Positions 4,333-26,254 of a stretch of 26,254 bases of DNA are shown here, piece after piece (the first letter of the stretch is position 1; every line of letters starts with the position of its first letter). The translations under genes and the position numbers were made by a program. The stretch covers positions 1 to 26,254 of the IMG/VR virus record IMGVR_UViG_3300025769_000712, one strand, 5' to 3'. The notes under the pieces are model-generated. The model saw only the letters and a list, made by a program, of their open reading frames with translations, was not told the origin of the DNA and did no database searches. The DNA comes from a virus.

Positions 4333-4704
4333 ATGAAGATATTAAAATATTTTTTAGTAATCTTTTTTGCTATGTCTATGGTTAGAAGTCAAGATACTTT
4401 TACCAAAGAAGAAGCATTAGAGATGATAAAACAAAGAGATGCACAGTGGGAAGATAAGATTGCTAAAGCTAATACATTGATAGAATTTCAAAAGATTACT
4501 ATTGCTAAATCTGATTCAGTTATTATTAAATTAGAAGAACAGGCAAAATTAGATACATTAGTAATGTTGGCACAGAAAAAACAAATTGATTTATTGAAAT
4601 CACGTGACGAAGCTAATGAAAAGATGATTGATTTAGTTGAAAAGAAATGGTACGAAAATCAATACCTTTGGTTAGGTATAGGATTTATTTTAGGAAAGAT
4701 ATAA
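4333..4704 (+). CDS. Small secreted or membrane coiled-coil protein
   Basis: I take the start at ATG 4333 because GAGG at 4323-4326 lies six bases upstream. An in-frame ATG at 4321 overlaps the preceding stop but has no SD, and would add MRLS. The 123-residue product begins with a signal-peptide-like stretch (MKILKYFLVIFFAMSMVRSQ), continues as a charged helix, and ends with a short hydrophobic tail, YLWLGIGFILGKI. No lipobox cysteine is visible, so it is not an obvious lipoprotein o-spanin. Its stop overlaps the terminase start (TAATG), implying translational coupling. The function is unknown; a role with the preceding membrane protein in lysis is a weak inference. Confidence 0.75.
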   Translation: MKILKYFLVIFFAMSMVRSQDTFTKEEALEMIKQRDAQWEDKIAKANTLIEFQKITIAKSDSVIIKLEEQAKLDTLVMLAQKKQIDLLKSRDEANEKMIDLVEKKWYENQYLWLGIGFILGKI

Positions 4705-6281
4705 TGAAACCAGGTGTTCTAAAAGAGGTAATCAAAAAAGAGTATCAAAAGTGTGCTCAAGATCCTGTATACTTTCTAAAGAAGTATTGTGTTGTTCAGC
4801 ACCCAATGAAAGGTAAAGTTCCTTTTCATTTGTATGAATACCAAGAAAAATCTTTAGCTACTTTTGAAGAACACAGATTCAATGTTATTTTGAAAGCACG
4901 ACAATTAGGTTTATCAACATTAACTGCAGGATACTCACTTTGGATGATGACTTTTGGGCAAGATAAAAACATATTAGTTATTGCTACTAAACAAGATACT
5001 GCTAAAAACTTAGTAACTAAGGTAAGAGTAATGCACGCCAACTTACCCTCTTGGTTAAAACAAAAATGTACGGAAGATAACAAACTATCTTTACGATATA
5101 ATAATGGTTCACAGATAAAAGCTGTATCAAGCGGTGAAGATAGCGGTCGTTCAGAAGCTCTATCACTTCTAATACTTGATGAGGCTGCTTTCATTGATAA
5201 AATTGAACCGATATGGGCTGCTGCTTCACAGACACTATCTACTGGTGGACAATGTATCGCACTTTCTACACCTAATGGTGTTGGTAATTGGTTTCATAAG
5301 ACTTGGGTTGGTGCAGAAGATGGAACAAATGATTGGAATTGGATTAAGTTACATTGGAATTTACATCCTGAAAGAGATGAAGAGTGGAGAGCAGAGCAAG
5401 ACAAACTATTAGGCCCATCATTAGCGGCTCAAGAATGTGATTGTGACTTTATCACTTCAGGTCAGACTGTTATTGATGGTGTTATATTAGAAGAGTATAG
5501 AGAAAGACACGTACAAGACCCATTAGAAAAAAGAGGTGTTGATAGTAATCTTTGGATATGGCAACCACCAAACTATACAAAGGACTATGTACTAAGTGCT
5601 GATGTCAGCAGAGGAGATGGTACAGATTTTTCGGCATTTCACGTTATGAATATAGAAACTATGGAACAGGTAGCTGAATACAAAGGTAAAATGTCTACAA
5701 AAGATTTTGGAAACCTTTGTGTAAATACAGCGACAGAATACAACAACGCTTTATTAGTTGTTGAGAATAACAATATAGGTTGGGCTGCTCTACAACAATG
5801 TATTGACAGAGGGTATGAAAACTTATTTTACACGAGTAAAGATTTAAAGTATGTAGATACAGAACATCAGATAAATAATAGATATAGAAGTCAAGACAGA
5901 AATATGGTAGCTGGTTTTTCTATGACAATGAAGACAAGACCTTTAGTAATCGCTAAATTAGAAGAATATTTTAGAGAAAAGTCAGTAATTGTTCGTTCAA
6001 ATAGATTAATTGATGAACTTTTTGTATTTATATATAACAACAATAAAGCTGAAGCTATGCAGGGGTATAACGATGATTTAGTTATGAGTTTTGCTTTGAC
6101 TCTTTGGGTAAGAGATACTGCATTAAGATTAAGAAATGAAGGCATTGAATTAACTAAAAAAACTTTGAGTGGTGTAGCATCACAGATGATACCACAAAAA
6201 CCAACCAATAAAACGAACTCTTGGGAAATGGATATAGGACCCAACGGAGAAAAAGAATCGTTAGATTGGTTACTTAACTAA
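4704..6281 (+). CDS. Terminase large subunit, T4 gp17-like
   Basis: This is the DNA-packaging motor: an N-terminal ATPase that translocates DNA through the portal and a C-terminal RNase H-like nuclease that cuts the concatemer. The start is ATG 4704, with AGGAAAG upstream and overlapping the previous stop; the longer frame from 4647 lies inside the preceding gene and is rejected. In the 525-residue product the adenine-binding and Walker A-like region is KARQLGLST (64-72), Walker B is LLILDEA (D159, E160), and the coupling motif is ALSTPNG. The nuclease acidic residues are D300 (SADVSRGDGTDFS), E354 (VENNNIGW) and D457/D458 (GYNDDLVMS). T4 gp17 is 610 residues, so this is somewhat shorter. The portal gene follows directly. 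A small terminase subunit is not recognised in the window. Confidence 0.95.
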   Translation: MKPGVLKEVIKKEYQKCAQDPVYFLKKYCVVQHPMKGKVPFHLYEYQEKSLATFEEHRFNVILKARQLGLSTLTAGYSLWMMTFGQDKNILVIATKQDTAKNLVTKVRVMHANLPSWLKQKCTEDNKLSLRYNNGSQIKAVSSGEDSGRSEALSLLILDEAAFIDKIEPIWAAASQTLSTGGQCIALSTPNGVGNWFHKTWVGAEDGTNDWNWIKLHWNLHPERDEEWRAEQDKLLGPSLAAQECDCDFITSGQTVIDGVILEEYRERHVQDPLEKRGVDSNLWIWQPPNYTKDYVLSADVSRGDGTDFSAFHVMNIETMEQVAEYKGKMSTKDFGNLCVNTATEYNNALLVVENNNIGWAALQQCIDRGYENLFYTSKDLKYVDTEHQINNRYRSQDRNMVAGFSMTMKTRPLVIAKLEEYFREKSVIVRSNRLIDELFVFIYNNNKAEAMQGYNDDLVMSFALTLWVRDTALRLRNEGIELTKKTLSGVASQMIPQKPTNKTNSWEMDIGPNGEKESLDWLLN

Positions 6282-6292
6282 GAGGTAAAACT

Positions 6293-8098
6293 ATGGCAGA
6301 AAAAGATTTATTTTCAAGACTAAAACGACTTTTTTCTACAAACACAATTGTTCGTAATATCGGTGGAAGGAAGTTAAAGATTGTAGATACAGGACAGTTA
6401 CAATCAAACGTACAAACAAACTTAGTTGATAGGTATAGTAAGTTGTATTCTAATATGCAACAATATGGATATAACGACCAACTATACGCACAACAAATGA
6501 GATTGGGTTTATTTAGAGATTATGAATCTATGGATAGTGATTCTATTATAGCTTCTGCTTTAGATATTTATTCTGATGAGTCTACTATGAAAAATGAGTA
6601 TGGTAAAGTACTAAACATTACTACAGACAATAATCAAATACACGATATTCTTCACAACCTATTCTACGATATACTAAATATAGAGTTTAATCTATGGCCT
6701 TGGGTTCGTAATATGAACAAATATGGTGACTTCTTTTTACAATTAGAAGTTACTGAAAAGTATGGTATTACAAATGTTACACCAATGTCTGCTTACGATG
6801 TTGCTAGAATGGAAGGACACGAACCTGATAATCCACAATTGGTTCAGTTTATGTTAACGCCACAAGGTGATGCTAGTAGACATAGTTCAAAGAAACAAGA
6901 TTCAAAAATATTTGAGAACTATGAGGTAGCTCACTTCAGATTACTTTCAGATTCTAACTATGTACCTTATGGTCGTTCTATGTTAGAGGCTGGTAGAAAA
7001 GTTTGGAAACAATTGACTCTTATGGAAGACGCTATGTTGATACATCGTATTATGAGAGCGCCAGAAAAGAGAATATTTAAGTTGGATATTGGTAACATAC
7101 CACCAGCTGAAGTTGATAACTTTATGCAACAAACAATCAATAAGATGAAGAAGGCTCCTGTAATCGATGAGAAAACAGGTGACTACAATCTACGTTACAA
7201 TATCCAAAACCTTACAGAAGATTTCTTTTTACCTGTAAGAGGTGGGGATAGTGGAACTAATATTGAAAGTTTAGCTGGGTTAAGTTACGATGCTGTAGAA
7301 GACATAGAATATTTAAGAAACAAAATGATGGCTTCGTTGAGAGTTCCAAAGGCTTTCTTAGGATACGAAGAGGGTTTGGGTTCTAAGGCTACATTAGCAG
7401 CTGAGGATGTTCGTTTCGCTAGAACGATAGAAAGAATACAAAGAATTATAGTTAGTGAGTTGACTAAGATTGCTGTAGTTCATTTGTATGCTCAAGGATA
7501 TCGTGACCAAGACTTAGTAAATTTTGATTTGAATCTTACCAATCCATCTACAATATATGAACAAGAAAAGATTGAGTTATGGAATCAAAAAACATCTTTA
7601 GCTGATTCGATGATTAGAGATGGATTGATGTCAACGGAATGGATTTACAAAAATGTATTTGGTTTTACAGACGAAGAAATGAAAGAAAACGATGAACAAA
7701 TAATTTTTGATTACAAAAACAAATTTAGAAGACAACAGATTGAAGCCGAAGGTAACGATCCAGCTAAGAGTGGACAATCACAAGGTACACCATCTGATTT
7801 AGCTATGGGTAGAACTGGTCACGAATTAGATGACGAAGGTGGTTCAGAAGAAGGTGGACAGCCAGGTGCTGGAAGACCAAAAGAAGCTAATAAATATGGT
7901 AAGGATAGTGGAGCTAGGGGTAGAGACCCATTAGGTGCACACGATAAAAAGACAGCGCATGGTGCTGTAGCTACTCATCATTATGAAAATTTATTCAAAC
8001 ATCTAAGTAATAATGAGAAAAAGCTTATTTTTGAAGCGAGTGAGTTGGAAGATGAATATAAATCCGAAGTATCTTCGCTTAATACTAACAAAAATTAA
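6293..8098 (+). CDS. Portal vertex protein, T4 gp20-like
   Basis: This is the dodecameric portal at the unique head vertex, which initiates prohead assembly, conducts DNA and docks terminase. The 601-residue protein (T4 gp20 is 524) starts at an ATG with AGAGG seven bases upstream, 11 bases after the terminase stop. Typical gp20-like stretches include SMDSDSIIASALDIYSDEST near residue 80, the WPWVRNMNKYGDFF block, and a central MMASLRVPKAFLGYEEGLG followed by KATLAAEDVRFARTIERIQ. The C-terminal 110 residues are Gly/Asp/Glu-rich and low complexity (GGSEEGGQPGAGRPKEANK), which accounts for the extra length. Terminase adjacent to portal supports both calls. In T4, genes 18 and 19 lie between them; here they do not. 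Confidence 0.95.
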   Translation: MAEKDLFSRLKRLFSTNTIVRNIGGRKLKIVDTGQLQSNVQTNLVDRYSKLYSNMQQYGYNDQLYAQQMRLGLFRDYESMDSDSIIASALDIYSDESTMKNEYGKVLNITTDNNQIHDILHNLFYDILNIEFNLWPWVRNMNKYGDFFLQLEVTEKYGITNVTPMSAYDVARMEGHEPDNPQLVQFMLTPQGDASRHSSKKQDSKIFENYEVAHFRLLSDSNYVPYGRSMLEAGRKVWKQLTLMEDAMLIHRIMRAPEKRIFKLDIGNIPPAEVDNFMQQTINKMKKAPVIDEKTGDYNLRYNIQNLTEDFFLPVRGGDSGTNIESLAGLSYDAVEDIEYLRNKMMASLRVPKAFLGYEEGLGSKATLAAEDVRFARTIERIQRIIVSELTKIAVVHLYAQGYRDQDLVNFDLNLTNPSTIYEQEKIELWNQKTSLADSMIRDGLMSTEWIYKNVFGFTDEEMKENDEQIIFDYKNKFRRQQIEAEGNDPAKSGQSQGTPSDLAMGRTGHELDDEGGSEEGGQPGAGRPKEANKYGKDSGARGRDPLGAHDKKTAHGAVATHHYENLFKHLSNNEKKLIFEASELEDEYKSEVSSLNTNKN

Positions 8099-8105
8099 GT
8101 AATCA

Positions 8106-8115
8106 TATATTTATA
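8106..8115 (+). promoter_or_regulatory. Candidate late promoter, copy 1 (TATATTTATA)
   Basis: TATATTTATA lies in the 50-base gap between the portal gene and the next gene. It is the centre of a perfect inverted repeat with eight-base arms (8103-8110 and 8113-8120), so strand cannot be told from this copy alone. The reverse strand contains the T4 late-promoter word TATAAATA. The same core recurs in four other gaps of this window, always before + strand genes. The promoter role is inferred. Confidence 0.5.
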
Positions 8116-9012: not shown

Positions 9013-9433
9013 GTTAAAGGAAGCCATACGACAAATAGTTCGTGAATTGTTGCAATCAGAGATAGAAGAAGCTTCTACCTCTGCTGCTACACCTGGTTAT
9101 CAGACTCCTATGGCATTTAGTGGTGGAAGAAAGAAAGATAAGAAGAAAAAAAAGGACATAGCTAACGCTGCAGGATATGATATTGTAAAAGAGGGAAGAT
9201 ATCACGACTATAGAAACGATGATACTTTGTCACCAAAACAAAAGATTGGTCGTTCTATGAGAGAGATTAGAGATAGTCTCAATGAATTAAATAGGTTAGT
9301 TAAGATGAATGTTCGTCTTAAAAATGAATTAAATGTGGATTCGAGGTCGTATTGGAAGAATACACATAAGGCTTTAAACAAAATAAGTGAGAGGTTAGTA
9401 AAACTAGCAAACAAAGTTGGTCAGTTACAGTAG
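8996..9433 (+). CDS. Small basic prohead-block protein
   Basis: A 145-residue protein whose ATG at 8996 has GGAG at 8985-8988; it overlaps the preceding gene by 17 bases. It opens with an amphipathic helix (KLKEAIRQIVRELLQSEIEE), then a Ser/Ala/Gly-rich linker with ATPGYQTPMAFSGG, then a polybasic run KKDKKKKKD, and finishes with a helical segment of about 65 residues. The IxE/LxE-like sequences in the N-terminal helix resemble gp21-type cleavage contexts, so this may be a processed core or internal head protein. That is inference from motif and position; the family is not recognised. Confidence 0.75.
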   Translation: MSKADKLKEAIRQIVRELLQSEIEEASTSAATPGYQTPMAFSGGRKKDKKKKKDIANAAGYDIVKEGRYHDYRNDDTLSPKQKIGRSMREIRDSLNELNRLVKMNVRLKNELNVDSRSYWKNTHKALNKISERLVKLANKVGQLQ

Positions 9434-9440
9434 TTTCACT

Positions 9441-9629
9441 ATGGCGTTTGAAGACAAAAAGAAATCCTATATGGATACTCTTTTTAGCATTTCTACTCTG
9501 TTGAAAAGATGGCAGGTTGAAATACAGAAAAAAGATGTAGATAAGAATTATATGTTGAGAAGACTTGGACAGTGGATAGAACACTTAGAAAGTCTCAAAC
9601 ACGAAATAATGATGGAGAAAGACAAATGA
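9441..9629 (+). CDS. Very small helical protein
   Basis: A 62-residue protein (MAFEDKKKSYMDTLFSISTL...). I chose ATG 9441, eight bases after the preceding stop; the frame can be extended to a TTG at 9417, but that lies inside the upstream gene. Neither start has a good SD, so translation may depend on coupling to the preceding gene. The product is one or two charged amphipathic helices with no membrane segment. Its stop overlaps the next start (ATGA). It lies in the portal-to-protease interval and might be a small core component comparable in size to T4 gp67, but without gp67's acidic tail. Function unknown. Confidence 0.65.
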   Translation: MAFEDKKKSYMDTLFSISTLLKRWQVEIQKKDVDKNYMLRRLGQWIEHLESLKHEIMMEKDK

Positions 9630-10483
9630 TTTCACTATTAGAAATTGCACAAACTATCAATGAAGTTGATGACGACAAAATCATCAAGTATAAAGATAAG
9701 GATGGTGAGTCTCAAGAAATGACTGCTGGTGCTGCTAAAAAGCAGCCAGATGACCATCCAGCAAAAGTTGCTTATAATAAAATGTCAGGTGATGATGGCG
9801 ATGATAGTGAAAAAGATGCCGGTGGTAAGTTAGGTGGTAGTGATTTTGAAAGAGATGGTGGTGATAATGAAGATAAACCAGATATGGATTCTGATGATTC
9901 TGATAGTGCTGATGCAGAAGATGATGTCAAAGCTGATTTAAGAAAAAACCCTGAGAAGTTAGATGATATGAGTGCTGAAGAGTTAGAAGATGTATTTCCA
10001 TCGCATGAGGAATATATGGAATTTGAGACTCTTAGAAATCAAAAAGTTCTCAAAGATAGACATCCAAAACTTCACAAATTAGCATCACAATCCATTCAAG
10101 CTAAACAAGAATTAGAGAGTTTAGAAAAAGAACTTAAAGATAAATTGGGAAGTGGAGAGTTTGCAGATCCTTTTGTAAAAGGTAAAGAAGATCCAGAAGG
10201 TAAAAAGAAATTTGAAGATCATCAGCAAAAAATTAAAGACGCAGAAGAAAAAATGGAAGATGCCAGTAATGAGGTATACTACTATCAACAAGACAACGCT
10301 AATGCATTAGATGGCGATGATATACCATACGATGTTGAAGATTTAGTTAGAGGTGAAGGAAATAAAAAAGATGAATCGATTAAAGTAATCGATGGAAAAA
10401 AATATAAAGCAATAAAGGAATCAAAAAAGAATCCTCAATTATTTAAAGAAATTTATGAGAGAACATTTAGGAGTTTGAAATGA
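9626..10483 (+). CDS. Acidic prohead-core-like protein
   Basis: A 285-residue protein. I take ATG 9626 (overlapping the previous stop, GGAGAAAG upstream) rather than the in-frame ATG 9572 buried in the preceding gene. The N-terminal third is extremely rich in Asp, Gly and Ser (for example DGDDSEKDAGGKLGG), the middle is a charged coiled coil (LESLEKELKDKLG), and the end carries KVIDGKKYKAI, similar in form to IEIDGVKYAPI in the gp22-like scaffold. High acidity, a coiled coil and a place just before the protease gene fit a prohead core or internal protein to be degraded at maturation. I cannot assign a named family. Confidence 0.75.
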   Translation: MISLLEIAQTINEVDDDKIIKYKDKDGESQEMTAGAAKKQPDDHPAKVAYNKMSGDDGDDSEKDAGGKLGGSDFERDGGDNEDKPDMDSDDSDSADAEDDVKADLRKNPEKLDDMSAEELEDVFPSHEEYMEFETLRNQKVLKDRHPKLHKLASQSIQAKQELESLEKELKDKLGSGEFADPFVKGKEDPEGKKKFEDHQQKIKDAEEKMEDASNEVYYYQQDNANALDGDDIPYDVEDLVRGEGNKKDESIKVIDGKKYKAIKESKKNPQLFKEIYERTFRSLK

Positions 10484-11082
10484 AACAATTAATAGTAGAC
10501 TATATACCATTTGAGGTAAGACCAGACCAAATTAATGAGTCGATGAAAGAAAACAACGGAAAGTTAGTTGTCAAAGGTATTTTGCAAAGAGCAGATACTA
10601 AAAATCAAAATGGTAGAGTATATCCAAAAGAAATTCTAATGCGGGAGGCAAAGAAGTATTCAGAGAACTTCGTACAACAAAAAAGAGCTATGGGTGAGTT
10701 AGACCATCCTGAATCATCAGTTGTAAATTTACAGAATGTATCTCATAATGTAACAGATATGAACTTCAATGGTGATGATTTAGTTGGTACAGTAGAAGTT
10801 CTAACTACACCGAGTGGTAATATTCTTAGAGAGTTATTTAAAAATGGTATAAAGTTGGGTATCAGTTCTCGTGGTATGGGTTCAGTTGAAACTATGCACG
10901 AAAGTGGAGCACAAGAAGTGCAAGACGATTTTGAATTAATTGCTTTTGATTTTGTTTCTAACCCATCTACACACGGTGCTTTTCTTCATCCAATGAATGA
11001 GAGTGTGGATAAGAATTTAGCAGTTCGTGATACTAAGTATGGTAGAGTTGAAGCTGTAATTAATGATATAATGAGGGGATAA
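10480..11082 (+). CDS. Prohead protease, T4 gp21-like
   Basis: This is the serine protease of the prohead core, which cleaves scaffold, capsid and core proteins after Glu and frees space for DNA. The 200-residue product (T4 gp21 is 212) starts at an ATG overlapping the previous stop, with AGGAG upstream. Visible family features are NQNGRVYPKEI (about 42-52), the catalytic-histidine motif GELDHP with H76, LVGTVEVL, and the catalytic-serine region KLGISSRGMGS with S129/S130, followed by FDFVSNPSTHGAFL. Both catalytic landmarks are intact. It precedes the gp22-like and gp23-like genes as in T4, although three extra genes are inserted before the scaffold. Confidence 0.93.
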   Translation: MKQLIVDYIPFEVRPDQINESMKENNGKLVVKGILQRADTKNQNGRVYPKEILMREAKKYSENFVQQKRAMGELDHPESSVVNLQNVSHNVTDMNFNGDDLVGTVEVLTTPSGNILRELFKNGIKLGISSRGMGSVETMHESGAQEVQDDFELIAFDFVSNPSTHGAFLHPMNESVDKNLAVRDTKYGRVEAVINDIMRG

Positions 11083-11770: not shown

Positions 11771-11780
11771 TATATTTATA
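11771..11780 (+). promoter_or_regulatory. Candidate late promoter, copy 2 (TATATTTATA)
   Basis: TATATTTATA lies in the 27-base gap after the DUF3008-type gene and 16 bases before the next ATG, with the SD (AAGGAGA) between them. It is the heart of a perfect inverted repeat with eight-base arms, 11767-11774 and 11777-11784, that begins at the stop codon. If it is a -10 element, the leader would be only about ten bases and would still hold the SD. Confidence 0.5.
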
Positions 11781-11796: not shown

Positions 11797-12432
11797 ATGG
11801 CTAACATAAAATTAAAAAATTTAATAAAAGAAATGCAAATCGGCGGAGGAATGGTTTCTAGAAGTCCGTGGGTTAAGGAAGAAGAAGAAAAACCACAGAT
11901 AAATGTAAAAGAATTGGTTTCTAAAATCAATGCTTTTAATTCTATTGGTGAATCTATATATGGTAAAGGTAATCTAAAAGAGGTTGCTGAAAATCTTTCT
12001 TCTATAGCAGAAGGTGCTGCTCAACATACTTTATCTGAAGCTGGTGATATGTTCGACAAAATTACAGTTAGCCGTAATATGAAAGAACTTACAAATCTAT
12101 CTAAGCAATTTGGTAAAGTAGCTGGTGAAGCTAATTCTTTACAAGAAAGAATGAGTGGGCTATATGAAGATATGGGTAACATCTTAGGTAGATACTATGA
12201 GATTGGTGAAAAGCATGTACCAGGTCATGATGATGATGATAGAGATATGAGAGATGATATGGATGAAGCTGAAAAAATGATGTTTAGAGAAGAAGATGAT
12301 TATAAAGCGTTCTTCAAAAAAGCTATGAAAAAATTCAATGTATCTAATATAGAAGACTTGAGTGATGATGATAAAAAAGATTTCTTCAATTATGTAGATA
12401 GAAACTATAAGGCGAAAAACGAAAAAGACTAA
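11797..12432 (+). CDS. Helical prohead-block protein
   Basis: A 211-residue protein with AAGGAGA well placed before its ATG. The N-terminus (ANIKLKNLIKEMQIGGG) is an amphipathic helix. Residues 45-135 are predicted-looking long helices with heptad spacing (NMKELTNLSKQFGKVAGEAN), followed by an acidic patch GHDDDDRDMRDDMDEAE and a C-terminal small helical unit KAFFKKAMKKFNVSNIEDLS. There is no membrane segment or catalytic motif. Given its position between protease and scaffold, an additional core or internal head protein is the best guess, without family support. It shares a transcription direction and a nine-base gap with the S21 gene that follows. Confidence 0.75.
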   Translation: MANIKLKNLIKEMQIGGGMVSRSPWVKEEEEKPQINVKELVSKINAFNSIGESIYGKGNLKEVAENLSSIAEGAAQHTLSEAGDMFDKITVSRNMKELTNLSKQFGKVAGEANSLQERMSGLYEDMGNILGRYYEIGEKHVPGHDDDDRDMRDDMDEAEKMMFREEDDYKAFFKKAMKKFNVSNIEDLSDDDKKDFFNYVDRNYKAKNEKD

Positions 12433-12441
12433 GAGGTATTT

Positions 12442-12669
12442 ATGTCAATAAAAGTTGTAGTAAAGAATAATAATTACGAAAAAGCTCTCAGTATATTTAA
12501 AAGAAAAGTCAAAGATTCAAACCTTATGTATGAACTAAGGGAAAGAGAGTTCTATAAAAAACCATCTGCGGTAAAAAAAGAAAAGAAAAACAAAGCAAAA
12601 GCCCGTAATTATTGGAAAAAGGTTAAATTAATGGAAGAAGATAGCCGAAACAGAGGAAGAAAATTCTAA
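12442..12669 (+). CDS. rpsU: Ribosomal protein S21 (bS21) homologue encoded by the phage
   Basis: A 75-residue basic protein (E. coli S21 has 71), ATG with AGAGG five bases upstream. It follows the bS21 plan along its whole length: an N-terminal beta strand IKVVVKNNN, the EKALSIFKRKVKDS helix, then ELREREFYKKPSAVKK and a Lys/Arg-rich C-terminal helix. In bacteria bS21 binds the 30S platform near the anti-SD end of 16S rRNA and helps initiation. Phage-encoded S21 is known from aquatic phages, including pelagiphages. Here it lies between prohead-core genes and the scaffold gene, so it is probably made with virion proteins. It could enter host ribosomes and favour phage messages; that role is inference. 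Confidence 0.9.
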   Translation: MSIKVVVKNNNYEKALSIFKRKVKDSNLMYELREREFYKKPSAVKKEKKNKAKARNYWKKVKLMEEDSRNRGRKF

Positions 12670-12674
12670 TTCCT

Positions 12675-12684
12675 TATATTTATA
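12675..12684 (+). promoter_or_regulatory. Candidate late promoter, copy 3 (TATATTTATA)
   Basis: TATATTTATA is six bases after the S21 stop and about 106 bases ahead of the scaffold ATG. It is preceded by TTCC, giving a 14-base string (TTCCTTATATTTAT, 12670-12683) that is repeated exactly at 18828-18841. It would drive the gp22-like and gp23-like genes, the most heavily needed products of the window. Confidence 0.6.
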
Positions 12685-12699
12685 TATATCAAAACTAAA

Positions 12700-12764
12700 T
12701 ACACCGTTCTTCTTATACGGTGTAACCGAATATAATAATTCTATTATAGTTCCCAATAACTATA
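12700..12764 (+). promoter_or_regulatory. Two hairpins in the scaffold-gene leader
   Basis: The 121-base gap before the scaffold gene holds two inverted repeats. Hairpin 1 pairs TACACCGT (12700-12707) with ACGGTGTA (12717-12724) across a nine-base loop. Hairpin 2 pairs TATAGTT (12745-12751) with AACTATA (12758-12764) across six bases. Neither has a T-run, so they are not typical terminators. They lie downstream of the candidate promoter and upstream of the SD (AGGAG near 12779), so they would be in the 5' leader and may affect message stability or translation. The function is inferred. Confidence 0.45.
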
Positions 12765-12790
12765 CTAAATCCTAAACAGGAGAAATAATA

Positions 12791-13864
12791 ATGGATGATC
12801 TCTTAAAAGAAGCAATTGCTGACGCTAAAGCAGTTCGTGAAACAGCTTTAGAAAATGCTAAGATGGCTTTAGAAGAGGCTTTCACTCCAAGATTGCAGAA
12901 TATGCTATCTCAAAAAATCCAAAACGAAATCGAAGATGAAGATGACGAAAAGAAAGACGAAGATGTCGATCTAGAAGAAAGAGATGACGATGAAGATATG
13001 GAAGAGAGAGCTATGAATGATGAAGATGAAGATCCTTCTGATGAACATTCTGAAGATGAGTCAGTAGACGAATCTGAAATTATCGAAATCGATGGTGTTA
13101 AATATGCACCAATCGTTTCTGAAGAAGAAGACGAAGATGAAGATAAGATGGATGAAGCTGAAGAAGATGACGAAGATATGGATGAAGATCTTGATTTAGA
13201 ATCTGTAATTAAAGAGCTTGAGTCTGAACTCGATGAAATTGATAAAGATGATGATGATGAAAAGAACGAAGAAATCGAAGAGGGCGAAGAAATTGAAGAA
13301 AATGATGTTTCTTCCGATATTGGTAAAGGCGATAACAAAGTTAACGCAAAAGCTAATAGTTCAAGCGGTGGTGGTAGCGAAGGAAAAGCGAAATTAAAAG
13401 AAGAGAAAGATGAAGATGAGATGGATGAAGATATCGATCTTGACGAAGTAATCAAAGCTCTTTCTGAGGAAGAAGATGAAGATGAAAAGAAGGATGAAGT
13501 TGCAGAACTTAAATCCGACCTTGAAGAACATCGTTCCGTAATCGAAACACTTCGTGGAAAGCTAAATGAAGTCAACTTGCTAAATGCTAAACTTCTATTC
13601 ACAAACAAACTATTCAGAAAGTATGGTTTGAATAACGAACAGAAGATGAAAGTCGTTGAGCAATTCGATAGAGCATCAAACCTAAGAGAAGTCAAGTTAG
13701 TGTATTCTACACTTGGTGAATCTTTTGGTGCTAGAAAAAATGAAATTAATGAATCTAAGGGAAGCGCTTCAAAGCCAGTCGCCTCAACCAAATCTGAAAA
13801 GAAAGTAATTTCTGAAGGAAATGATTTGAGAGATAGGTTTAAGAAGTTAGCTAACCTAATTTAA
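12791..13864 (+). CDS. Prohead scaffold, T4 gp22-like
   Basis: This is the main core scaffold on which the capsid shell assembles and which is later degraded by the prohead protease. The 357-residue product (T4 gp22 is 269) starts at an ATG after AGGAGAAATAATA. The N-terminus, DDLLKEAIADAKAVRETA then ENAKMALEEAFTP, and the C-terminus, LLNAKLLFTNKLFRKYGL then VVEQFDRASNLREVKLVYST, are the parts that read as gp22-like. Between them, residues 50-245 are extremely acidic, with long Asp/Glu runs, which explains the greater length. Position directly before the capsid gene agrees with T4 order. It would be expressed from the candidate promoter at 12675. Confidence 0.88.
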   Translation: MDDLLKEAIADAKAVRETALENAKMALEEAFTPRLQNMLSQKIQNEIEDEDDEKKDEDVDLEERDDDEDMEERAMNDEDEDPSDEHSEDESVDESEIIEIDGVKYAPIVSEEEDEDEDKMDEAEEDDEDMDEDLDLESVIKELESELDEIDKDDDDEKNEEIEEGEEIEENDVSSDIGKGDNKVNAKANSSSGGGSEGKAKLKEEKDEDEMDEDIDLDEVIKALSEEEDEDEKKDEVAELKSDLEEHRSVIETLRGKLNEVNLLNAKLLFTNKLFRKYGLNNEQKMKVVEQFDRASNLREVKLVYSTLGESFGARKNEINESKGSASKPVASTKSEKKVISEGNDLRDRFKKLANLI

Positions 13865-13879
13865 TTGGGAGACAATATA

Positions 13880-15511
13880 ATGTCAAACTTTGAAAATCTA
13901 AGCGATGTGATGGGTGGTCATAACCCTCATCAGGAGCTCCTAGCACAGACTCGTAAATTAGTCGATAAGTGGGAGCCAACTGGATTGCTAGATGAAATCG
14001 ATGATTCAACTAAGAAAACAGGTATGGCTGTTCTTCTTGAAAACCAGGCTACGCAGCTTATTAAAGAGGCGTCACAGACAGGTACTGGCGGAAATAAAGA
14101 AGAATGGTCTGGTGTTGCTTTACCATTAGTTCGTAGAATTTTTGGTGAACTATCAGCACAAGAGTTTGTTAGTGTTCAGCCGATGAATCTACCATCTGGT
14201 CTTATTTTCTATTTGGATTTCAAATATGGTTCAGCCGACCAAGCTAATCACGTACAGAATTCCGATATATTCGGAAACACTTCTGGATCTGGTGATGCAA
14301 GTGGTGGTCTTTATGGTGCTGGAAAATTTGGATATTCAATTAACGATCAAGCAGCTGAGGGTATTGTAATATCTGGTGCTGCTACTTCATCAGCAACTTG
14401 GAAAGATGTTGAATTTGAACCAGACCTAAGTCAGTCTATTGTAGACGGAGATATCATTAAGCTATCTGTAGGTGCTGGCATTTTCACTCGTGCAGACTTT
14501 AATGGTGTTCGTGCTTTTGAACTTACTGGTTCAGTAATCACAGCAAACTATCCTGCATATACTGTAGTTGATGATGTAAACAATGTAACTACTGCTAGTT
14601 TCTTCTTCAAAGCATCTGCTATTGCTGAAGCAAACAAATTTGGTATTCTTTACCATCAACAGCCGACTGCAGCTGAGCGTGGTGATTTTGAGCAAAGCTC
14701 ATTCACTACTCCTGGTCCTTCTACTGCTGATGACTTACAGATACCTGAAGTAGACATTAAGTTAAGAAGTGAAGCTATTGTTGCGAAAACACGTAAGTTA
14801 AAAGCTGTATGGACTCCTGAGCTTGCTCAAGACCTTAACGCTTATCACTCTGTTGACGCTGAAGCTGAACTTACTGCTATGCTTAGTGAATACATTGCGA
14901 TGGAAATCGATTTAGAAATCCTCGATATGTTGAAAGCTAATGCTTCTGCTAAGACAGAGTATTGGTCAGCTAAAGTTGGTTTCGAGTACGATCCAAATGC
15001 AAATCCGACAACTGATTACTTTTCAGAAATCAGCGGACAGTCTAATGCTTACACCAAACCATCTTGGTTCCAGACACTTGGAATTAAGATACAATCTGTA
15101 AGTAATGCTATCCATCAGAAAACACTACGTGGTGGTGCTAATTTTGTTGTTGTTTCACCTGAGACTGCTACAATCTTAGAATCTGTAAGTGGATATATTG
15201 CTAATACAGGTAACGCTGAAGCTAAAACCTATGCTATGGGTGTGGAAGCGGTAGGCTCAATCAATAACCGATATACTGTTTATAAGAATCCTTATATGTT
15301 GGATAATAGTATACTTGTCGGTTTCAGAGGAAGCAATTTCTTAGAAACTGGTGCTGTATACGCTCCATATGTACCGATGATTATGACTCCATTAGTATAC
15401 GATCCTCAGAACTTTACTCCACGTAAAGGTGTGATGACTCGTTATGCTAAGAAGATGGTTAGACCTGAGTTCTATGGTAAGGTGATTGTATCACACGCAA
15501 ACCAAGTTTAA
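13880..15511 (+). CDS. Major capsid protein, T4 gp23-like
   Basis: The main shell protein, HK97 fold, forming the hexamers of the head. I take ATG 13880 with GGGAG at 13867-13871; an in-frame TTG at 13865 would overlap the SD. The 543-residue product (T4 gp23 is 521) has the N-terminal propeptide expected for gp21 processing, with a likely cut in QLIKE|ASQTG after E63. Family blocks follow: VALPLVRRIFGELSAQEFVS, VQPMNLPSGLIFYLDFKYG, later KLKAVWTPELAQDLNAYHSV and LSEYIAMEIDLEILDML, and near the C-terminus MIMTPLVYDPQNFTPRKGVM. The gene is closed by a strong terminator. No gp24-like vertex gene follows it. Confidence 0.96.
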   Translation: MSNFENLSDVMGGHNPHQELLAQTRKLVDKWEPTGLLDEIDDSTKKTGMAVLLENQATQLIKEASQTGTGGNKEEWSGVALPLVRRIFGELSAQEFVSVQPMNLPSGLIFYLDFKYGSADQANHVQNSDIFGNTSGSGDASGGLYGAGKFGYSINDQAAEGIVISGAATSSATWKDVEFEPDLSQSIVDGDIIKLSVGAGIFTRADFNGVRAFELTGSVITANYPAYTVVDDVNNVTTASFFFKASAIAEANKFGILYHQQPTAAERGDFEQSSFTTPGPSTADDLQIPEVDIKLRSEAIVAKTRKLKAVWTPELAQDLNAYHSVDAEAELTAMLSEYIAMEIDLEILDMLKANASAKTEYWSAKVGFEYDPNANPTTDYFSEISGQSNAYTKPSWFQTLGIKIQSVSNAIHQKTLRGGANFVVVSPETATILESVSGYIANTGNAEAKTYAMGVEAVGSINNRYTVYKNPYMLDNSILVGFRGSNFLETGAVYAPYVPMIMTPLVYDPQNFTPRKGVMTRYAKKMVRPEFYGKVIVSHANQV

Positions 15512-15533: not shown

Positions 15534-15565
15534 AAAAAGGGGAAGTGTTTACTTCCCCTTTTTTT
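15534..15565 (+). terminator. Strong Rho-independent terminator after the capsid gene
   Basis: A perfect 13-base stem, AAAAAGGGGAAGT (15534-15546) with ACTTCCCCTTTTT (15551-15563), a GTTT loop and a T-run to 15565. It lies 22 bases after the capsid stop and ends the scaffold/capsid message. The A-run on the left makes it potentially bidirectional, but no - strand gene is nearby. Confidence 0.92.
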
Positions 15566-15573
15566 GTTTCTTT

Positions 15574-15582
15574 TATATTTAT
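15574..15582 (+). promoter_or_regulatory. Candidate late promoter, copy 4 (TATATTTAT)
   Basis: TATATTTAT sits eight bases after the terminator T-run and 33 bases before the ATG of the neck gene, where a new promoter would be needed. The flank TT rather than A after the core removes the exact TATAAATA match on the other strand, so this copy supports reading the motif on the + strand. Confidence 0.55.
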
Positions 15583-19686: not shown

Positions 19687-19690
19687 TATT

Positions 19691-26254
<6,564 letters not shown>

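Follow-up and report, generated by a model that had tools for sequence, protein, structure and literature searches.

Why do phages carry a gene for ribosomal protein S21? The window analysed here, a 26,254-nucleotide stretch of viral DNA (IMG/VR record IMGVR_UViG_3300025769_000712), bears on this question: an initial annotation, made from the sequence alone, had assigned a plus-strand open reading frame (12442-12669) to S21. The assignment was correct. The 75-residue product matched the Pfam family PF01165 (Ribosomal_S21) over residues 4-56 (E 8.5e-14; 51.4 bits against a curated cut-off of 27) and PHROG 21469 'ribosomal protein S21' over residues 1-66 (E 1.9e-12), confirming it as a genuine bS21, although the match falls short of the full length that had been supposed. 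Against solved bS21 chains the best E-value was 1.6e-8. An AlphaFold2 model built from an 18-sequence alignment has three helices (residues 12-26, 28-36 and 41-71; mean pLDDT 83.6), and shows the helical fold and basic C-terminal helix of the bS21 family. The top Foldseek matches of this model were organellar S21-type chains, with weak scores (E 0.04-0.1). The tail past about residue 57 is common to the closest relatives only.

The gene lies in a T4-like head block, which comprises a cytidylyltransferase-domain protein, the large terminase (terL; 4647-6281; PF03237, E 1.2e-11), the gp20 portal (6293-8098; PF07230, E 3.1e-75), the S77 prohead protease (10480-11082; PF03420, E 5.1e-28), a DUF3008 protein, a protein without assigned function (11797-12432), S21, an acidic scaffold-like protein (12791-13864) and the gp23 major capsid protein (MCP; 13865-15511; PF07068, E 5.2e-76); the genes given with coordinates are all on the plus strand. 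The scaffold-like gene, which matched nothing in Pfam or PHROG, was assigned from its composition and its position directly 5' of the MCP gene. Relatives of the gene directly 5' of S21 precede S21 in many related phages, and the Shine-Dalgarno (SD) site of S21 itself, AGAGGT (12432-12437, plus strand), touches the stop codon of that gene and is kept in SD-using relatives. The S21 slot is also kept among relatives, on the same strand and at a median distance of 1259 bases upstream of MCP. Indeed, S21 was on the strand of the structural genes in the window and in 70 of 70 S21-carrying representatives.

Phage S21 genes beside head genes, their late transcription and ribosome takeover have all been published (Mizuno et al, 2019; Al-Shayeb et al, 2020; Chen et al, 2022). 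In freshwater Bacteroidetes phages, bS21 is transcribed late with the structural genes (Chen et al, 2022; PMC9723584). Those phages, large myoviruses, resemble the window in having bS21 among terL, portal, protease and MCP genes, and the window gene, lying within the structural cluster, has the same late-type context. However, their S21 genes run opposite to the structural genes and encode an aromatic residue 54, whereas the window combines the same strand, Ala54 and an SD-rich genome. When produced in E. coli, the bS21 of Pelagibacter phage HTVC008M is taken up into 70S ribosomes (Mizuno et al, 2019; PMC6375957); it too is a phage bS21, but just 50% identical to window S21 over 38 residues. 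What is new here is the conserved S21 slot together with the co-occurrence of S21 and SD use, the ATATTTATA motif that bounds the gene, and a structured leader. The literature searched contained no report that S21 and SD use co-occur in phages, which is no proof of novelty.

For both MCP and terminase, Microcystis phage Mel-JY01 and Flavobacterium phage immuto were among the best relatives in the phage collection. In Mel-JY01, which is SD-using (0.42), a gene annotated as RpsU likewise occupies the slot between protease and scaffold/MCP, but its RpsU is divergent (37% identity in the alignment to window S21) and extra genes separate it from the scaffold gene. The head block of immuto (MCP 52% and terL 54% identical to those of the window) has the same ATATTTATA motif and similar leader hairpins. 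Unlike the window, immuto does not use SDs, and S21 was not found in the first 150 of its 160 kb; a small open reading frame in its S21 slot region is not S21.

The initial annotation had also placed S21 among prohead genes, just before a candidate promoter, and this was borne out. S21 lies between the protease and scaffold/MCP genes, and the 9-mer ATATTTATA occurs at 12676-12684, 7 bases past the S21 stop codon and 5' of the scaffold/MCP leader. Another copy (11772-11780) lies 5' of the gene pair formed by 11797-12432 and S21. With a copy at 8107 there are three in the window, all on the plus strand and all intergenic; the number expected from dinucleotide shuffles of the window was 0.58, and three copies were reached in 2 of 100 shuffles. 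In immuto, 15 of 16 plus-strand copies are noncoding, although noncoding sequence makes up only 12% of that stretch of immuto, and the coding strand of a relative, G003, shows the same bias (noncoding in 10 of 13). The shorter ATATTTAT is often found 3' of intrinsic terminators, some tens of bases upstream of start codons. We read ATATTTATA/ATATTTAT as a strand-specific, late-promoter-like element common to the window phage and immuto. A scan of the window for sigma-70-type promoters found 16, with 17.0 expected. Since ATATTTATA is present at 11772 and 12676, and late transcription of bS21 has been published for other phages (PMC9723584), late expression of window S21 is plausible.

Copies of ATATTTAT are present in the window at 15575 and 18834. 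Past the MCP gene, a strong intrinsic terminator (15534-15563; 13 pairs and a T-rich tail) is followed by the ATATTTAT motif. Many related phages have an intrinsic-terminator-like hairpin directly 3' of S21.

How common are SD sites among the genes that such an S21 would serve? Of the 18 window genes encoding at least 100 aa, about 13-14 carry an SD (0.72-0.78), compared with 0-0.17 at control positions; when an SD was defined as pairing with ACCUCCUUU at -5 kcal/mol or below, the fraction was 0.72 against 0.00. Most genes thus carry an SD, and the earlier statement that nearly all have GGAG/AGGAG sites was somewhat overstated, S21 itself using AGAGGT. Relatives G001 and G003 also use SDs (0.60 against 0.08 in controls, and 0.65 against 0.14), while immuto (0.01 against 0.08) does not; G010, whose S21 has Tyr54, had a fraction of 0.15 against 0.13. 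With genes of G001, G003 and G009 mapped on the immuto annotation, sums derived from the fractions gave SDs in 48 of 62 structural genes and in 11 of 19 early or non-structural ones. Since early genes carry SDs too, the original proposal that S21 tunes virion mRNAs specifically is unsupported. In huge phages with a possible rpS1, identifiable SDs are rare (Al-Shayeb et al, 2020).

We compared S21 and SD use across relatives in IMG/VR loci fetched by MCP similarity, excluding loci fetched by S21 as a guard against ascertainment; a first count (59/11/0/43) had included the latter and was redone. The 156 loci, each with a minimum of 8 genes and of 5 kb 5' of MCP, reduced to 100 representatives at 85% MCP identity. 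SD fractions came from a simple ORF caller applied to 8-27 genes per locus, and absence of S21 refers to the slot and available flanks. At a threshold of 0.3, 46 representatives had both S21 and SD use, 11 had S21 and were SD-poor, 43 had neither, and none was SD-using without S21; the median SD fraction was 0.53 with S21 and 0.07 without. Therefore, in this set of relatives, use of SDs is almost always accompanied by S21, and phages lacking S21 almost never use SDs. In the whole set of 156, two S21-less loci exceeded 0.3 (L508, with 12 genes, and L130, with 8). The raw Fisher value (2.6e-18) should not be taken to reflect as many independent observations: the MCP tree holds 7 changes of S21 and 9 of SD use, and yields about 3 concordant and 0 discordant independent pairs (sign test p 0.25). 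One local contrast sets L305, L308 and L302 (S21 present, SD 0.53-0.67) against L300, L298 and L326 (S21 absent, 0.06-0.20), with MCPs about 71-72% identical. Such relatives would allow a direct test of an S21-driven shift toward SD-marked mRNAs. Several of the SD-poor relatives (L321, L340, L347, L350, L351 and others) have short S21s starting MLIVSVKGGNIEWALKDYKKKVQ or similar, with Arg54 in the members checked.

The best explanation, to which we give a probability of about 0.45, is that substitution of phage bS21 on the 30S subunit suits the SD-marked mRNAs of the phage. The protein would be made from the late head-gene region, would replace or top up host bS21 on the 30S beside the 3' end of 16S rRNA, and would thereby maintain or create a ribosome that favours SD mRNAs, that is, to most genes of the window phage, both early and late. 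Incorporation into ribosomes is inferred by analogy with the Pelagibacter phage protein, and selectivity for SD mRNAs is likewise a supposition. In favour of this explanation we count the identity of S21, its helical model, the conserved slot, the richness in SDs, the co-occurrence of S21 and SD use, the flanking motifs and the literature. Against it we count that there are only about 3 independent contrasts, that 11 S21-carrying representatives are SD-poor, that early genes have SDs before a late S21 would exist, and that an aromatic residue 54 does not predict SD use, leaving no simple residue switch. A precedent comes from Flavobacterium johnsoniae, in which alteration or loss of bS21 improves the translation of strong-SD mRNAs by the ribosome (McNutt et al, 2023; PMC9976891). 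There, as proposed here, bS21 is a control point for SD recognition, but it is a host protein, has Tyr54 and is only weakly similar to window S21 (E 0.0022).

At the position of F. johnsoniae residue 54, window S21 has Ala and not the aromatic Tyr of the Bacteroidia type, which occludes the anti-SD. We considered loss of Tyr54, opening the anti-SD, as the switch to SD use, and rejected it. An aromatic residue 54 is present in 13 SD-rich representatives and 1 SD-poor one, and a non-aromatic residue in 46 SD-rich and 10 SD-poor ones. Since the aromatic residue is kept in 13 SD-rich phages and missing from 10 SD-poor ones, this simplest molecular version fails. A bolder reading, which we judge unlikely, is that in a T4-like clade with known Bacteroidota hosts, whose anti-SD is hidden, SD use arose only in S21-carrying lineages, with phage S21 remodelling the 30S platform for preferential initiation on SD mRNAs.

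The main rival, which has a substantial chance of being right, is that host phylum confounds the association: S21-carrying, SD-rich phages would infect SD-using hosts and S21-less, SD-poor ones Bacteroidia, with S21 no more than a supplement to the ribosome and SD use tracking the host. An SD-using host would explain much of the pattern, and would fit the SDs on early genes, the lack of both S21 and SDs in the Flavobacterium phage immuto, and the fact that window S21 matches the F. johnsoniae chain 7jil_z (E 0.0022) less well than generic bS21 (E 1.6e-8). It leaves unexplained why 0 of 43 S21-less representatives are SD-rich, when T4 and similar SD-using phages are not known to need S21. Contigs of S21-carrying, SD-using relatives, L080 (NZWA01000064.1) and L081 (NZWA01000030.1), are binned in the Flavobacteriales MAG NAT55, which also speaks against a difference of host, although this co-binning may be misbinning. 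Shared ancestry, whereby each of the two traits became fixed in the same small set of ancestors with no functional tie, would be in keeping with the 7 and 9 changes on the MCP tree and with the p value of 0.25 from independent pairs; as every informative pair was nonetheless concordant (about 3 for, 0 against), we consider it improbable. More improbable still is an S21 that functions away from the ribosome, or that is carried in the virion and active from the start of infection. Packaging was raised as a possibility for phage bS21 (PMC9723584), agrees with the place of the gene among prohead genes and would make sense of SDs on early genes, but the fold of the family, with its basic helices, is consistent with a conventional role in the ribosome.

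Clues to the host itself were few. A first genome scan for cellular relatives of window S21 found none, and a second returned the phage contigs in the Flavobacteriales MAG and weak S21s of Nitrospirota and Omnitrophota. A bS21 belonging to NAT55 was looked for in the MAG and not found. Head-region DNA searched against 395 genomes of the MAG's class matched the co-binned phage contigs, and otherwise gave short, weak matches and no convincing spacer. A close relative (L005, on contig L063) encodes a phage tmRNA at 9378-9799 of that contig (RF00023; 85.7 bits, E 2.5e-32), with VNDEPTYAYAA as its predicted tag and a tRNA-Gly nearby; a host search with this tmRNA matched only within the conserved 30-base 3' end.

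The 121-base gap between S21 and the scaffold gene (12670-12790) is strongly conserved in close relatives and contains two covarying hairpins, both on the plus strand in the 5' leader of scaffold/MCP, outside S21. In HP1 (12700-12724), 6 of 7 pairs show double changes among 16 hand-assembled stems, in which loops were swapped for N. In HP2 (12745-12764), with the loop CCCAAT (consensus YCYAAT), 5 of 7 pairs do so among 19 sequences, with 22 double-change cells against a shuffle mean of 3.4 and 100% of cells paired. Hairpin rows were picked by a stem search, and the HP2 count omits rows with a bulge or other loop sizes; this selection inflates the pairing percentage and tends to lift double-change counts too. 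The shared position before the scaffold gene, the conserved loop and the variety of stems across lineages are less easily attributed to row selection. In the window and in G001, a scan for stems of at least 6 pairs closing the HP2 loop found the leader site and nothing else; in G003 it found the leader site and two weaker matches elsewhere.

The leader is also present in L053 (about 10600-10724) and 5' of the scaffold gene in L125-L133. Since its hairpins occur in relatives with and without S21, it is part of the scaffold/MCP (head operon) transcript and not of S21, and a role as an S21 autoregulatory element is disfavoured. Its likely role would be to set how stable the head mRNA is, or how well it is translated. 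No Rfam 15 family matched it at gathering score; freshwater-2 was rejected at 18.8 bits, with 49.9 needed and a different pairing register. The leader is a candidate structured RNA in a clade of aquatic phages that is widespread, with a similar leader in a cultured phage. At the far end of the window (about 19690-26254), a very long open frame with Gly-Gly-Thr, Gly-X-Thr and Gly-X-Gln repeats runs past the window end, and probably encodes a collagen-like tail fibre.
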